Below are positions 26,365 through 41,104 of a stretch of DNA of 64,000 bases, one piece after another. The stretch is from Rhodamnia argentea. Taxonomy: Eukaryota > Streptophyta > Magnoliopsida > Myrtales > Myrtaceae. Below the pieces are notes generated by a model. It saw nothing but the letters and a program-made list of their open reading frames with translations, searched no databases and was not told the DNA's origin. The translations under genes were made by a program, and so were the position numbers. How positions within the stretch are numbered: position 1 is the first letter of the stretch; every line of letters starts with the position of its first letter. The DNA lies in NCBI RefSeq assembly GCF_020921035.1, contig NC_063158.1, positions 5,872,001 through 5,936,000 on the forward strand, in the 5' to 3' direction.

Positions 26365-29300
26365 ATGAGTAATCTCAAGCTTGGCGTGGAGGTCGTGAGT
26401 GCGCATGATCTTGTTCCCAAAGACGGGCAAGACTCTTCCGGTGTTTATGTGGAGCTCCAATTTGAGGGTCAAAAATTTCGCACCACTCTGAAAGAGAAAG
26501 ATCTCAGTCCAGTCTGGAATGAAAGCTTCTACTTCAACGTCACCAACCCTAGCAACCTCCGCGACCTTACCCTTAATGCCTACGTCTACAGCCTCAATAA
26601 AGCCACCGACAAGAAGTCCTTCCTTGGAAAAGTTTCCCTTACTGGGACATCATTCGTGCCATACTCGGATGCTGTCGTCCTCCATTACCCCCTTGAAAAA
26701 CAAAGAATTTGGTCACGGGTGAAGGGAGAGCTCGGTTTGAAAGTTTTCATAACAGATGATTCTTACATGAGCTCCTCAAATCCAATGCAGACAATGCAAT
26801 CCACCATGAATGTCGACCCACGTTCAGCTGAACCAATTCCAAACCCCTTCTCCGATGGAAGAGCCGAGTCAAGGCGGACTTTCCGTCACCTTCCAAATCC
26901 GGACCGCCGAAAACAAAATGACGACGCTTCTGCTGCAGGCTCCCTGCCAAAACCAAACTTGGGGTCTTACGAGATGAGATCCGGACCACAGCCTCCAAAT
27001 GTAGTCCACACTTATGGGGGCCCATCGCCAATGCAACCAGGGGAATATTCATTGAAAGAAACAAGCCCCCATCTTGGCGGTGGCCGAATTGTTGGAGGGC
27101 GAGTAATACCTGCTGAGAGGCCGAACAATACCTATGATCTTGTTGAAAAGATGCAATACCTCTTTGTTCGAGTCGTGAAAGCCCGTGATCTTCCTACTAA
27201 GGACGTAACGGGAAGCCTCGATCCATATGTGGAAGTTAGAGTGGGGAACTATAAAGGAACTACAAAGTATTTTGAAAAGAATAAAAACCCAGAGTGGAAT
27301 GAGGTGTTTGCATTTGCCAAGGATCAGGTTCAGACATCTGCGCTCGAGGTTGTGGTCAAGGACAAAGATCTTGTAATGGATGACTTCGTGGGTTTGGTTC
27401 GCTTGGATCTTTACGATATTCCCACTAGAGTTCCACCTGACAGCCCGTTGGCTCCTGAATGGTATAGGCTTGAAGAGATGAATGGGGAGAAGAGGAAGAA
27501 AGGGGAACTGATGCTTGCTGTTTGGTATGGCACACAGGCAGATGAAGCTTTCCCTGATGCTTGGCACTCAGACGCTACTTCTGCAACTGATCCTTCTTCA
27601 GCTATTTATGGCCATACTCGTGGCAAGGTCTACCACTCGCCTAAATTGTGGTACGTGCGTGTTGTCGTACTTGAGGCACAAGATCTGCTTGTGTCAGACA
27701 AGAGCCGGTTCCCTGATGCATATGTTAGGGTACAGATAGGTAATCAGGTGTTCAAGACAAAACCGGTTCATTCTCGGAATATGAATCCTGTATGGAGGGA
27801 GGAAATGCTGTTTGTTGCTGCTGAGCCCTTTGAAGATCATTTGATTCTTTCAGTTGAAGACCGTTTAGCTCCCAATAAGGAGGAAACCATTGGGAAAGTT
27901 ATTGTACCACTGAGCCAAGTCTACAGGCGTGCCGATGACAAGATTGTGCGTAGCCGCTGGTTCAACCTTGAAAAGTCAACATCGGCTGCTATGGATGTGG
28001 ATGCAGGAAAGAAGGACAAGTTCTACAGCAGATTGCATCTGCAAGTCTGCCTTGAAGGAGGGTATCATGTGCTTGATGAGTCCACATATTACAGCACTGA
28101 CCTCAGACCGACTGCAAAGCCACTGTGGAAGAATTCCATAGGGGTCTTGGAACTTGGGATTATCAATGCCGAGGGACTCCACCCGATGAAGACGAAAGAC
28201 GGTAAGGGTACATCAGACACTTATTGTGTAGCAAAGTACGGCCAAAAGTGGGTGCGAACTAGGACTATAATCGACAGCCTGAGTCCCAAATACAATGAGC
28301 AGTACACATGGGAAGTTTATGATCCAGCAACTGTTCTAGTTGTGGGAGTGTTCGACAATAGTCAGATAAATGGAGGCTCAAGCAGTAACAAAGATGTTAA
28401 GATTGGGAAGGTTCGGATTCGGCTATCTACTCTCGAGACTGGTCGTGTGTATACACACTCCTATCCGCTTCTGGCACTTCACTCTTCTGGGGTAAAAAAA
28501 ATGGGTGAGGTACATTTGGCGATAAGATTTTCTTGCACGTCACTCATCAATATGATGTACATATACTCTCGGCCACTTCTACCGAAGATGCACTATGTAA
28601 GGCCGTTGACCCCAATGCAGCAGGACTTATTGCGTCACCAAGCGGTCAACTTGGTGGCGGCTCGTCTTAGTCGGGCTGAGCCTCCCCTCAAGAGAGAAGT
28701 AGTTGAATACATGTCTGATGCACACTCTCATTTATGGAGCATGAGACGGAGCAAGGCAAACTTTTTTAGGCTGATGTCAGTTTTCTCAGGATTATTTGCT
28801 TTCGGGAAATGGTTTGGGGAGGTGTGCAAATGGAAAAGCCCTGTGACAACCATCCTTGCGCATGTTCTCTTTGGGATGCTCGTGCTGTTTCCAGAGTTGA
28901 TCTTGCCGACTGTTTTCTTGTACATGTTCGTAATAGGTCTTTGGAATTACCGGTATCGGCCTAGATATCCCCCTCATATGAACACTAGAATATCTTATGC
29001 GGATGCTGTTCATCCAGATGAGCTCGACGAAGAATTTGACACGTTTCCGACCACTCGCAGCCCGGACACAGTTCGATACCGCTATGATCGTTTGAGGAGT
29101 GTCGCAGGAAAGGTTCAGTCGGTTGTAGGTGATCTTGCAAGCCAAGGCGAGCGAATCCAAGCCCTGTTGAGCTGGCGAGACCCACGCGCCACAGTCATCT
29201 TCATTCTATTTTGTCTTGTGGCTGCAATCGTGTCGTATGCAACACCTTTTCAGGTTGTGGCTCTTAGTATTGGGGCTTATGTCATGAGGCACCCTAAGTT

Positions 29301-29373
29301 ACGACATAAAGTGCCCTCTGCGCCTACCAATTTCTTCAAGCGACTGCCTGCTCAGACAGACAGTATGTTGTAA
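26365..29373 (+). CDS. Multiple C2 domain and transmembrane region protein (MCTP7-like, four C2 domains)
   Basis: One uninterrupted frame of 1,002 aa starts MSNLKLGVEVVSAHDLVPKD and ends at TAA 29371-29373. C2A covers about residues 1-130, followed by a Pro/Ser-rich linker. C2B is about 263-385 (VRVVKARDLPTKDVTGSLDP), C2C about 427-550 (EAQDLLVSDKSRFPDAYVRV) and C2D about 595-720 (INAEGLHPMKTKDGKGTSDT). Aspartates typical of Ca2+ binding are seen in C2B-C2D. The C-terminal phosphoribosyltransferase-C region (about 800-1002) carries hydrophobic segments near 835-865 and 940-975. Plant MCTPs (FTIP1, QUIRKY) tether ER to plasma membrane at plasmodesmata and move signals or proteins. Four C2 domains and the N-terminal wording favour the MCTP6/7 branch over the three-C2 FTIP1/MCTP3 branch. 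Confidence 0.95.
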   Translation: MSNLKLGVEVVSAHDLVPKDGQDSSGVYVELQFEGQKFRTTLKEKDLSPVWNESFYFNVTNPSNLRDLTLNAYVYSLNKATDKKSFLGKVSLTGTSFVPYSDAVVLHYPLEKQRIWSRVKGELGLKVFITDDSYMSSSNPMQTMQSTMNVDPRSAEPIPNPFSDGRAESRRTFRHLPNPDRRKQNDDASAAGSLPKPNLGSYEMRSGPQPPNVVHTYGGPSPMQPGEYSLKETSPHLGGGRIVGGRVIPAERPNNTYDLVEKMQYLFVRVVKARDLPTKDVTGSLDPYVEVRVGNYKGTTKYFEKNKNPEWNEVFAFAKDQVQTSALEVVVKDKDLVMDDFVGLVRLDLYDIPTRVPPDSPLAPEWYRLEEMNGEKRKKGELMLAVWYGTQADEAFPDAWHSDATSATDPSSAIYGHTRGKVYHSPKLWYVRVVVLEAQDLLVSDKSRFPDAYVRVQIGNQVFKTKPVHSRNMNPVWREEMLFVAAEPFEDHLILSVEDRLAPNKEETIGKVIVPLSQVYRRADDKIVRSRWFNLEKSTSAAMDVDAGKKDKFYSRLHLQVCLEGGYHVLDESTYYSTDLRPTAKPLWKNSIGVLELGIINAEGLHPMKTKDGKGTSDTYCVAKYGQKWVRTRTIIDSLSPKYNEQYTWEVYDPATVLVVGVFDNSQINGGSSSNKDVKIGKVRIRLSTLETGRVYTHSYPLLALHSSGVKKMGEVHLAIRFSCTSLINMMYIYSRPLLPKMHYVRPLTPMQQDLLRHQAVNLVAARLSRAEPPLKREVVEYMSDAHSHLWSMRRSKANFFRLMSVFSGLFAFGKWFGEVCKWKSPVTTILAHVLFGMLVLFPELILPTVFLYMFVIGLWNYRYRPRYPPHMNTRISYADAVHPDELDEEFDTFPTTRSPDTVRYRYDRLRSVAGKVQSVVGDLASQGERIQALLSWRDPRATVIFILFCLVAAIVSYATPFQVVALSIGAYVMRHPKLRHKVPSAPTNFFKRLPAQTDSML

Positions 29374-29854
29374 ATAGATGCTTGATCTTTGACTCTGAGA
29401 TCTTGTCTTCCGTTGGGACGACTGTTCTGCTCAGTTTTTCCTCCCAAATTATGCAGTACTGTGTAAGTGTTTCTTGTGTTTCTGTGAATTATTGTTCGAT
29501 TGTTCTAGCTTTGTAATCTTATACTGGCATTGTGTAAGTCAATTATAACTTGTTCATATGGCTTACCCTGAAGTAGCCTTCTGTTCCCTCCGATCTCCTC
29601 TACTATGTTCTGTTGATGTAATTTTTAGTCGACAAAATAGCAGAACTTACTTGTATTTATATTCTGGATCCAAGGGCTCGCTCCTGGAAGAAGTTGATTT
29701 TTATCTTCTTGACCAAGGAAACGGAAGAGTTGGATTGGTCAATGTATTCCTCTCTTGTCCTTTCATGGTCAATGCATTAAGTATATCAGGACCACAAACC
29801 TTACGGAGCACGTAAGGTTTTCCCTCCCAAATAGAAGATCTGTTATAACACTGA
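29374..29854 (+). other. MCTP 3' UTR and flank
   Basis: T-rich sequence after the stop is consistent with a 3' UTR. The words CTTGTCCTTTCATGGTCAAT occur near 29753 and again at the start of the inverted repeat near 29862, so a short piece of the kiwellin-derived arm is duplicated here. No gene was seen. Confidence 0.4.
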
Positions 29855-30380
29855 AACAAGCTTGTCCTTTCATGGTCAATTTGTTCCTCTCTTCATGTTC
29901 TGAGACTGATGGTTTGGTGTGAAGTAGTTACTTTGGTGGTAAGCCTTATATACAAATGAAGCAGTGAATAGCTGTATTTTACAGTGAATTTTGCAGAAAC
30001 ATCGCTATGCCTTTTGCTATAAGCATGGAGCCAGGTAAATGTGATAAGTTAATCGTCAGAGCAAGCTACTGACAAATCAGAGTTCAGAGAATCTTTGATG
30101 ATTCCACCATGCTCTTACCTTCACCCGTCTCTTGGATTTATTTGATGAAGACGACAGTTGATTCTCCAGTTAGATGTCTTTTACCTAACGCATTTGCCTC
30201 GCTCCAAGCTGATAGTAAAAGACAGAACGATGTTTCTGCAAAATTCACTGTAAAATGCAGTTATTCATTGCTTCATCTCTATGTGAAGCTCACCACCAAA
30301 GTAACTACTGCACACCAAACCATCAGTCTCAGAACACGAAGAGAGGAATACATTTGATCATGAAAGGACAAGCTTATTTC
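29855..30380. repeat. Large inverted repeat built from two head-to-head kiwellin-type promoter regions
   Basis: The left arm (about 29855-30060) and the reverse complement of the right arm (about 30165-30380) match closely: AAGCTTGTCCTTTCATG, TTCTGAGACTGATGGTTTGG, AGTAGTTACTTTGGTGGT, TTTTACAGTGAATTTTGCAG and further inward with more differences. The intervening loop is ~100-220 bp depending on where the arms are ended. Read outward, each arm has CAGTTATT/CAGCTATT, a TATA-like TGTATATAAG (left), CCACCA, and CACACCAAACCAT, followed by ATGAAAGGACAAGC. This order matches the region upstream of the kiwellin-like gene at 40201 (CAGCTATT, TGTATATG, CCACCA, GCACCGAACCAT, ATG). I infer two diverging kiwellin promoters whose coding parts are lost. 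Confidence 0.75.
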
Positions 30381-30799
30381 AGAGGTATCACCAAAAACCA
30401 AAAAAAAAAAAGGTGATATGGTGATGGAGAAGAGGTGAATCCTGCTTGAGATTTTCTTCTGATAGAAGACTCATTTCTTTCCCCCTCCACCTTTCACTTC
30501 CACTAGATTTCTAAGTCGCTACGAATATAATGAGACGAGCTTTTGATTTTAACCCTTTTTTTTTTTGGGAAATTTTTTAACCCTTTAATCTGTAACTTTG
30601 TGAATCACTTCAATTCATCAATCAATATGAATTTTTTGTTGTTGTTGTGGTTGTTGTTGTTGTCGTCGTCTGTGAGACTCCATCGGCACTGCAGTACAAT
30701 CATAAACTTGACATTTTAATAAATAAATAATTAATTAACCATAGTAAGTGAGTTTGAGAGAAACCAAGACAAGAAAACAAGATTGCAATGGATACAAAT

Positions 30800-31065
30800 G
30801 CACGGCATCATCTTCCGGCAAACCGTGGACGTCAATAACCCCAAAAGGGCTGGTGGAAAGGTCGGTAATCATGAGCCGGATCGCGTCCCGTAGTAGAATC
30901 ACACTCATCCACAACCATGGCATCGACGCTTATTCCGGAAGCGTCGATAGTAATATTCAGCACCTGTGCATTCGGTTGAACCACCCCGTCGACAGCACCG
31001 CCACAAGATTATTGTCAGAATGGCATAATGAACGCAATGACCAAATCCTCGACTTCAATTTTCAA
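30800..31065 (-). pseudogene. Kiwellin (ripening-related protein) coding relic
   Basis: The minus strand contains recognisable pieces of the kiwellin double-psi barrel: DNNLVAVLSTGWFN, then a block equivalent to NITI, then AMVVDECDSTTG and AHDY, in the same order as in the copy at 39643-40201. They are split between frames with internal stops, and no start, signal peptide or N-terminal half is present. It is a decayed fragment of a host gene, oriented like the two other copies. Confidence 0.7.
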
Positions 31066-33936: not shown

Positions 33937-34486
33937 TCAGGCATCTGACCAGTAAATGTCAAGCTCACCCACATGGGTTGGCACTCCTAGAGCTTTCCAA
34001 ACAGCTTTAGAGGCGTCCACAGTGTGGTTGTGACACGGAAGTTGGAAATCATGGTCAGAATCGCAGCCCATGGTGGAGTCCCGCTCATCCACAACCATGG
34101 CGTTGACCTCCCTCCCATTGCCGTAGATAGTAATATTCTTCAAGCACCTGCTCCGGTGGTTGAACCACCCGCTCGACAGGTGCCGTCCGAGTGGGACCGG
34201 TTGTCGCGCTCGGACGGCGCACCCCCGCACCGGCCTTCTCGAAGCTGTTGACTGTTAGGGTAGCTTACGTTCAACGTGAAACAGGCGGGGAACACTCGGT
34301 CGGGTAGAGAACGCCTTGTTTGCAGCATTCGGATTGATTCTCGGGGTTGCATTGTTTCGGAGGCGGCTTTCTCCCCCTTATTCTCCCACTGGGGTTGCAG
34401 GATTGAGCTTCGGCACTTGGACAAGTTGAACCAACGAGTAGAATGAGTATAAGAATGAGAAAACTCGAAAGGGCTTGTTTCTTCAT
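33937..34486 (-). pseudogene. Kiwellin-like pseudogene
   Basis: The N-terminus [20 protein letters not shown] is a good signal peptide followed by [19 protein letters not shown] and NQSECCKQG, the kiwellin Cys-rich start. Near CSPPVSR the frame meets two closely spaced in-frame stops (where the sister copy has CAA and AAG codons). A small deletion then shifts the frame near the EKGGDGGAPSE-type block, and part of the block before STGWFN is also lost. The last part is open again: SSGWFNHRSRCLKNITIYGN to VGELDIYWSDA and a normal stop at 33937. There is a good TATA sequence (TCTATATAAAG) about 80 bp upstream, at about 34565-34575. It is a host-gene copy that no longer encodes a full protein. Family function: secreted barwin-like proteins, some of which inhibit fungal effector enzymes. 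Confidence 0.82.
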
Positions 34487-34819
34487 CTCCAACAAGTTGT
34501 GTTTCCTCTAAACTGAATCGTAGTTGGCAACTGATTCCAGGGAAGGTGATGTTACGTTGATGGACTTTATATAGAGATTGAAGCGCTTAAATTGCTGCCT
34601 TTACCTATGTCATGACATAATAACGAGACATATCGTCATTTAAAAAAGCATAAAGTGACAACATACTGTACAAAAAGATTCTCGGTGATTTCACCATGCT
34701 CCTTAGTCCTTATTAGATCTCACTTTATAATCAATTGGCCTGCTTAATCTTTGCTGGATTCCCTTGGTTAACTCGTTTTAAAGATTCTCGATTCTCGATT
34801 CTTGTTGGAATCTTGGCTC

Positions 34820-39642: not shown

Positions 39643-40201
39643 TCATGCATCAGACCAGGAAACCTCAAGTTCGCCCCAGTCGTTTCGCGGCACTCCGAGA
39701 GCCTCCCAAACGGCTTCCGAGGCATCGACGAGGTTGGTAATCATGGCCGGCATCGCAGCCCTCTGTCGAGTCGCACTCGTCAACAACCATGGCTTTGACA
39801 CTCCTTCCATTGCCATAGATGGTAATATGCTTCAAGCACCTGCTGCGGTGGTTGAACCACCCTGTTGATAAGGCCACCACCAGGGTGTCGTCCGAGTGTA
39901 ACTTATTGTCGTACTCGGATGGTGCGCCGCCGTCACCGCCCTTCTCGAAGCTGTTGAGGGTTAAGGTGGCCTTCGTTTGACGCGAAGTCGGTGGCGAACA
40001 CCTGTAGGTAGTGTAGACTCGGCCTTCTCGGCAACAATCAGAGTCATCTTCAGTGTTGCACTGTCCTGGAGGCGGCTTTCGTCCCCTAATCCTTCCACTT
40101 GGCTTGCAAGACTGAGCTTCAACGCTTGGATAAGCCGAAGCAAGGCACAGAATGAGAATGAGAACGAGAACGACAGAGCGTGAACTGACTTGCTTCTTCA
40201 T
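39643..40201 (-). CDS. Kiwellin-like (ripening-related protein) gene with altered C-terminus
   Basis: The open frame runs from ATG 40201 to 39665 (178 aa). A signal peptide (SVVLVLILILCLASAYPSVE) is followed by [79 protein letters not shown] and AMVVDECDSTEGCDAGHDYQ. These are kiwellin-type double-psi beta-barrel landmarks. Directly afterwards about 17 bp present in the family (encoding the conserved Pro-Cys-x-Asn part) are missing. The frame therefore shifts and ends after 19 unrelated residues. The original frame continues in the DNA (VDASEAVWEALGVP ... WSDA) to a stop at 39643-39645. A TATA-like sequence lies at about 40288-40296. It may be expressed as a truncated secreted protein or be a young pseudogene. 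Confidence 0.75.
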
Positions 40202-40454: not shown

Positions 40455-40530
40455 GTAAAGGGAACTCCTGGTGATTTCACAGTGCATCAACCATAGTGTT
40501 CGGCTTTATTTCATGAACATCTTTGGTGGA
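40455..40530. repeat. Direct repeat partner of 42515-42590 (kiwellin upstream sequence)
   Basis: CTCCTGGTGATTTCACAGTG and ATGAACATCTTTGGTGGA recur as CTCTTGGTGATTTTACTGTG and ATGTACATCTTCTGTGGA at 42515-42590. Similar wording (TCGGTGATTTCACCATGCTC near 34680; TTGATGATTCCACCATGCTC near 30093) is found upstream of the other kiwellin copies. This marks a duplicated promoter module. Confidence 0.6.
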
Positions 40531-40554: not shown

Positions 40555-41104
40555 ACTTTTAGTAGAGTCCCAATTTTATCCCGAAATTTTTTTATCTAAA
40601 AAATACTAGTCCAGTCCAAATATGCCCCGAATTTTTATGTGTCTAAAAAAAACTGTAACTTTAGATCCAATTCCAGGTATGTCCCAAACTTTTTATTTTT
40701 GTCTAGAAGAAACATCACTAATTTTTACTAAAGTTCCAAATCTGCCTCCATCAGCCCTCAGTCCAAAAAATCGCTGTTAGTCGCATTTAATTTTCATATC
40801 CTGGAGCGGTTTCATTTTGGAGGTAATTTTCCATCACATTGTTGATGTGGATTTGTTATCGACGTGGAAATGCCATGTCAAGCTGGGACTGGGCCGCACA
40901 AGGGTAGGTTTGAGAGTAGATTGAAAACTAGTAATATTTTTAGACAAAATAAAATTTGGGGCAGATTTGGGACTGGATCTAAAGTTAGTATTTCTTTTTT
41001 TTTTTTTAGACAAAAAAAAAGTTCGAGGCAAATTTGAGATTAGACCTAAAATTTAGAGTCTTTTTCGAGAGAAAAAAAGTTTGGGACAGAATAGGGACTA
41101 GACC
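40555..41104. mobile_element. MITE-like element with long inverted arms
   Basis: The left arm (AGAGTCCCAATTTTATCCCG ... TGCCCCGAATTTTTATGTGT) reads as the inverse of the right arm (reverse complement TAGTCCCTATTCTGTCCCAA ... TTTGCCTCGAACTTTTTTTT). The arms are ~180-220 bp and imperfect, around a short centre. There is no coding capacity. It directly abuts the hAT-like element that begins at 41105. Confidence 0.55.

Follow-up and report, generated by a model that had tools for sequence, protein, structure and literature searches.

The window analysed here, a 64,000-nucleotide stretch of the Rhodamnia argentea genome to which all coordinates refer, carries a C2-domain/PRT_C gene at 26365–29373 (stop codon at 29371–29373). 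An inverted repeat begins 468 nt beyond this gene, and kiwellin sequences on the minus strand lie to the right of it. The two inverted copies, of 211 and 212 nt, occupy 29842–30052 and 30180–30391 and are separated by a 127-nt spacer. A preliminary description of this DNA had recognized close inverted copies able to form a hairpin of about 200 bp; this was borne out, with the ends corrected to 29842 and 30391. The features referred to below are as follows.

29736–29773, minus strand: extra short copy of the arm's ATG-side end, in two overlapping pieces of 16–21 nt
29842–30052, minus strand: left arm, facing left; carries the promoter, leader and initial codons of a kiwellin since lost (from the inverted repeat and promoter homology)
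29873–29871, minus strand: relic start codon of the left arm, followed by a 34-codon open frame (29769–29873)
29945–29952, minus strand: TATATAAG, TATA-box-like motif of the left arm, 72–79 nt before the ATG
30053–30179, minus strand: spacer, which forms the hairpin loop; runs on from the left arm as the distal portion of the original promoter
30180–30391, plus strand: right arm, facing right; copied from the left arm in inverted orientation
30360–30362, plus strand: relic start codon of the right arm, followed by an 18-codon frame to 30416
30859–31022, minus strand: what is left of a further kiwellin, from its middle to its 3' part (tblastn E 3.8e-14; two frames)
33940–34486, minus strand: pseudogene belonging to the same kiwellin array, with its upstream region beginning at 34487
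39665–40201, minus strand: kiwellin open frame of 178 aa, the closest promoter relative of the arms

Aligned as one, the arms span 212 columns at 85.4% identity with a single one-base gap, and differ by 18 transitions, 12 transversions and the gap column (K2P 0.159). The core of the repeat (29878–30052 and 30180–30354) is 175 nt at 86%, with an extension of 38 nt at 87%, and the stem includes perfect blocks of 29, 26, 18 and 17 nt. The plus-strand RNA of 29842–30391 (550 bases) folds at a predicted −304.2 kcal/mol (z −29.7), and none of 100 dinucleotide shuffles (mean −128.9 kcal/mol, sd 5.9) was as stable. The locus thus has a foldback stabler than shuffled sequence, as expected of MIRNA and proto-MIRNA loci (z −29.7, 0/100). 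In the left flank, at the site expected for the lost coding region, a small perfect palindrome (29797–29819; 9-nt arms, 5-nt middle) was noticed by eye.

We found no second copy of 29842–30391 in the genome (347 Mb, 74 contigs), and no further match to the spacer alone or the left flank alone, match counts in these searches being lower bounds. Both a miniature inverted-repeat transposon and any other kind of dispersed repeat were rejected, since the genome search, with counts as lower bounds, gave only the locus itself. Apart from the arms, near matches to pieces of the two longest perfect blocks were found at seven sites for one pattern (3 mismatches) and at none for the other. In a survey of 19 records (155,118 bases, with a small number of overlaps and with L022 and L023 left out as lying inside the window), inverted pairs of at least 60 nt at E 1e-4 with arms less than 2 kb apart numbered 13 in 9 places, and the hairpin at 29842–30391 was the most significant of all. 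In a different cluster, a long inverted repeat (~300 nt, 71%) lies about 2 kb before two kiwellin genes (L029, 1154–2031; L030, 1230–2063), and an imperfect one (182 nt, 69%) lies at 40566–41099, upstream of the 40201 gene.

Kiwellin promoter homology and missing coding sequence

PF24300, the kiwellin family, has at least 26 matches in the genome, which were grouped into 20 loci. Pairwise blastn with the arms alone was too weak to establish homology to kiwellin promoters (best match 68 nt, 71%, E 4); its proof required gapped local alignment of ATG-anchored regions together with shuffles. For the 12 of the 20 loci with a placeable start codon, we took 400 bases before the ATG and 40 after it. 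These were compared with a left query of 440 nt, which starts at the left ATG and runs outward through the left arm and the spacer and 94 nt into the right arm, and a right query of 290 nt ending at the right arm. The left query scored 108 against the upstream region of the 40201 gene (z 9.0) and 85 against that of the 34486 gene (z 4.1), and the right query 71 (z 5.6) and 76 (z 5.2), respectively, with none of 200 shuffles reaching the score in any case. The other ten upstream regions gave weak or no signal (z −1.3 to 2.9), the highest being the right arm against L017 (2/200 shuffles) and the left arm against L019 (5/200). The alignment of the arms to kiwellin upstream regions, which the preliminary description had proposed for every kiwellin gene, thus held clearly for the two local genes and at best weakly for the other ten of the 12 loci compared. 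Compared with each other, the two local upstream regions score 100, indicating that the arms are about as related to either gene as the 40201 and 34486 genes are between themselves.

The best left-query alignment pairs −276 to +24, relative to its own ATG, with −316 to +18 of the 40201 gene, and is thus confined to the left arm and spacer. With the arms alone, 0 of 500 shuffles reached the score in all four comparisons with the two local upstream regions; as a control, 158–346 of 500 did so when the arms were reversed and complemented. A sliding scan of 1128 comparisons across the window, excluding stretches centred at 29300–30900, placed the top five matches of the left arm (82–108; next 71) and the top six of the right arm (69–71; next 57) all on kiwellin upstream regions, on the minus strand. 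The homologous parts follow one another in the right order and lie at close to the right distance from the ATG, so that two local genes of the 12 show significant homology with matching position and strand, our criterion for derivation from a kiwellin promoter. The reading of the arms as head-to-head kiwellin promoters facing outward, originally drawn from the 40201 upstream region, is upheld there (0/200 and 0/500 shuffles) and extends to that of 34486. A block like GCATGGTGAAATCACC (minus strand, 30097–30112) is common to three promoters, recurring at 34686–34701 and 40470–40485; it lies about 200–285 nt before the ATG and may be a candidate kiwellin cis-element.

The spacer distinguishes the original side from the copy. 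Read with the left arm, it scored 51 and 45 against the two local upstream regions (0 and 1 of 500 shuffles); in the right-arm direction the scores were 26 and 35 (304 and 30 of 500). Because the spacer matches clearly only in the left-arm reading, the left arm and spacer are a continuous old promoter and the right arm is its inverted copy. The left arm faces left, the same direction as the window's other kiwellins. Homology was also seen to extend beyond the arms, through the spacer on the left-arm side. The preliminary description had placed a TATA motif in each arm. This stands for the left arm, with TATATAAG aligned to TATATAAA of the 34486 gene and to TATATGTA of the 40201 gene; the right arm has TATGTGAA at 30280–30287, the motif being lost.

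The kiwellin alignment extends past the arms' start codons for about ten codons at most. With three kiwellin protein queries, no convincing coding match past these was found on the expected strand next to either arm, in agreement with the earlier view that both attached coding regions are gone. A tblastn match at 29386–29460 (plus strand, E 0.029) was taken as chance, its strand being wrong for the left arm. The remnant at 30859–31022 on the minus strand, to which the preliminary description makes no reference, matches at 62.9% over 35 residues and 66.7% over 21, and at 71% over 170 nt to the 40201 gene; as it points towards the hairpin, it is not the right arm's coding region without a further inversion. 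Further along the array, the pseudogene at 33940–34486 matches PF24300 in pieces, one with internal TGA and TAA, and its translation has stops and frame changes. The 40201 gene, whose kiwellin frame is the longest in the window, is clearly a kiwellin (PF24300, 176.6 bits; PDB 6fpg, E 2.3e-46). Its last 21 residues seem, by eye, to diverge from the genome's other kiwellins as after a frame change; the PF24300 profile and PDB alignments nonetheless run on to residues 176 and 173. Judged by these sequences, the kiwellin array appears to be decaying.

Divergence of the arms and guide matches to kiwellin loci

Plant neutral rates are about 0.5–1.5e-8 per site and year, at which the divergence of the arms would correspond, very roughly, to 5–16 million years. 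Substitutions that yield G:U pairs account for 10 of 30 in the plus transcript and 8 of 30 in the minus transcript. Among the arm-differing sites at which the two local kiwellins share a base, 6 match the left arm and 7 the right. The arm differences thus showed no pairing bias and no arm asymmetry, and their clustering was not significant (permutation p 0.12–0.23), the 31 differences giving these tests little power. Rfam returned a single miRNA-family match, MIR7996 (55.4 bits, E 2.1e-8). This is well below the curated cut-off of 119 bits, so that family membership, which is helpful to a MIRNA assignment and not required for it, was not found. The MIR7996 alignment appears to match mainly by pairing, and we therefore take it as a long-hairpin score. 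At four loci with other, weaker inverted repeats, Rfam gave no match at 0.01.

The preliminary description also raised the possibility that RNA from the hairpin feeds small-RNA silencing of the kiwellin family. Since both promoters face outward, transcripts that they start would lack the hairpin, and since both leaders have the same sense sequence, they would not be expected to pair together. A hairpin RNA would need read-through, from the left gene or from the right. Among all 21-mers of the 550 bases, the best had 4–6 mismatches to each of the 20 kiwellin loci and none had fewer than 4 to any of them; in a control of 60 shuffles at three loci, 13–20% matched as well or better. We further scored mispairs with 1 for a mismatch and 0.5 for G:U, as in PMC8268441, doubled at guide positions 2–13 (our own choice of core). 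Mean scores over the 20 kiwellin loci were 5.9 at 21 nt and 7.4 at 24 nt, compared with 6.1 and 7.4 over 20 control stretches of the window.

Only the 34486 pseudogene (3.5) and L031 (4.5) scored below 5.0, the lowest control value at 21 nt, and at 24 nt only the 34486 pseudogene did (4.0, control minimum 5.5). Its best guide match, 30091–30115, falls in the loop, in a promoter element that the two have in common by descent, and is to the pseudogene's distal promoter. For L031 the match is in the stem (30200–30220) and is probably chance, because the L031 upstream region lacks homology to the arms. Stem-only scoring, which covers the two local loci (34486 and 40201), gave a best score of 4.5 at 21 nt (right arm, 30275–30295, against 34486) and 6.0 at 24 nt (left arm against 40201). 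Judged by sequence, trans-silencing through the stem thus has little support, although it might still act on the pseudogene. The same applies to the proposed silencing of the family as a whole, for which means equal to the controls and the lack of any 21-mer with fewer than 4 mismatches stand against it, yet two loci fall below the control minimum.

Origin of the hairpin and comparison with known systems

We consider it likely that the hairpin is a relic of a decayed inverted duplication, in which two outward promoter remnants, the left with a TATA motif, have no gene behind either. A minus-strand kiwellin tandem array would once have had an additional member with its promoter at 30179–29842. 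The promoter-proximal part, leader and first codons (29842–30052) would then have been copied inverted to 30180–30391, the attached coding regions would have been lost, and the two copies would afterwards have diverged by about 15%, free of detected constraint. We infer this order of events, as well as an absence of function; the latter is drawn from absent signal in about 210 nt, a length at which such tests have little power. The bidirectional promoter relic, which the preliminary description offered as its alternative reading, is the one that fits best, with the qualification that a TATA-like motif is kept in the left arm only. Its observation of the hairpin was real and the promoter origin well read, and a relic is much the likelier reading compared with silencing. 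Against a relic stands that this is the most significant inverted repeat in 155 kb, with perfect blocks kept, and that such a hairpin, if transcribed, could be diced. The MIR7996 match, where four loci with weaker inverted repeats gave none, and the two kiwellin loci with guide scores better than all 20 controls also speak against it.

The other readings partly overlap with one another and with this one, so that their probabilities do not add up to one. Small RNAs from the hairpin would match perfectly only their own locus, and any effect would therefore most likely be in cis. In such a case read-through would produce the long stem, Dicer-like enzymes would cut it, and the siRNAs would direct methylation to their own locus only, a proto-miRNA stage with the same origin as that proposed for the relic. 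The 85% identical stem, some 210 bp long (z −29.7), and a rice inverted pseudogene pair whose similar duplex yields small RNAs (PMC2708354) are consistent with this, but both promoters face outward and the sequence gives no sign of selection on pairing, and we regard it as unlikely. That the locus is a bidirectional promoter still active, giving two short outward non-coding transcripts under kiwellin-like regulation, is a good deal more doubtful: the left arm retains TATATAAG at an ordinary distance from the ATG and the element at about 30097–30112 is common to both local kiwellin promoters, but the right arm has lost its TATA motif, and the frames after the ATGs run for only 34 and 18 codons with no kiwellin similarity past the first codons.

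Silencing in trans would require that hairpin small RNAs cleave kiwellin mRNAs or methylate kiwellin promoters, like the methylation inducers of Brassica SP11. It could draw on the derivation of the arms from kiwellin promoters and leaders, on the low scores of 34486 (3.5) and L031 (4.5) against the 21-nt minimum of 5.0, of the right-arm stem against 34486 (4.5) and of that pseudogene at 24 nt (4.0 against 5.5), and on promoter-matching inverted-repeat small RNAs that act on SP11/SCR (PMC8268441, PMC13128112). It is nevertheless highly improbable, as the best 21-mers have 4–6 mismatches at 20 loci and are equalled by 13–20% of 60 shuffles (three loci), mean mispair scores equal those of controls, and the best match is a loop sequence (30091–30115) directed at a pseudogene's distal promoter, the L031 match being probably chance. 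A historical variant, to which we give scarcely more credence, is that a defence gene's promoter and leader gave rise to a proto-miRNA locus, whose siRNAs, from a read-through hairpin, once silenced neighbouring kiwellins and helped their decay, the weak 34486 matches being what remains. The preliminary description had named a closer match to an unrelated dispersed repeat as evidence that would tell against it; on checking, no other genome copy was found. Inverted arms and a short spacer would suit a miniature inverted-repeat transposon or a dispersed repeat of another kind, but this is almost certainly wrong, as the genome search found only the locus itself (counts being lower bounds) and kiwellin promoter sequence makes up both arms as well as the spacer.

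Inverted duplications of gene pieces are raw material thought to give rise to some plant small-RNA genes. Here, unusually, most of what was duplicated is promoter, and original and copy can be told apart. As a relic the hairpin is of modest interest; it offers a clear example of such raw material without sign of recruitment, amid a decaying defence-gene array. The kiwellin family (Pfam PF24300 KWL1; reviewed in PMC9813671) supplied both the promoter and the remnants nearby; unlike kiwellin genes, the hairpin is without kiwellin coding sequence past about ten codons. Among the titles and abstract openings of the matches listed in our literature search, none dealt with inverted repeats or small RNAs of kiwellins.

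Small RNAs from inverted repeats act on promoters at the self-incompatibility locus, as described for Smi/Smi2 and other S-locus precursors (PMC8268441, PMC13128112). As in that system, the inverted repeat here is similar to a gene promoter (in other cases an intron) and linked to the gene family; it differs from Smi/Smi2, with sequenced small RNAs and predicted target sites, in that its guide scores do not on average rise above background. PMC3237417 discusses how miRNA genes originate from inverted duplication (Allen et al. 2004) and from paired pseudogenes. Here too, part of a gene-family member was duplicated in inverted orientation and a long hairpin formed; in contrast to such MIRNA genes, guide-like matches to the family are at or near background. 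In its structure the hairpin is best placed with inverted pseudogene pairs, which PMC2708354 describes as opposite copies within 2 kb with a stem above 100 bp and a loop below 2 kb, and with small RNAs that map to the hairpin beyond a set density; the structural features all occur here, in upstream regions and not in coding sequence. Of the described cases that we found, the nearest comes from rice (Guo et al. 2009, PMC2708354): a pair whose duplex measures 185 nt at 83% identity and whose loop measures 1,283 nt. That account reports that the duplex gave many small RNAs and that the parent gene gave none that were detected. The two are alike in their opposite orientation and close in stem size (211 nt at 85% against 185 nt at 83%). 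They differ in that small RNAs were mapped to the rice pair with its 1,283-nt loop, whereas the locus described here has arms of promoter and leader around a loop of 127 nt.
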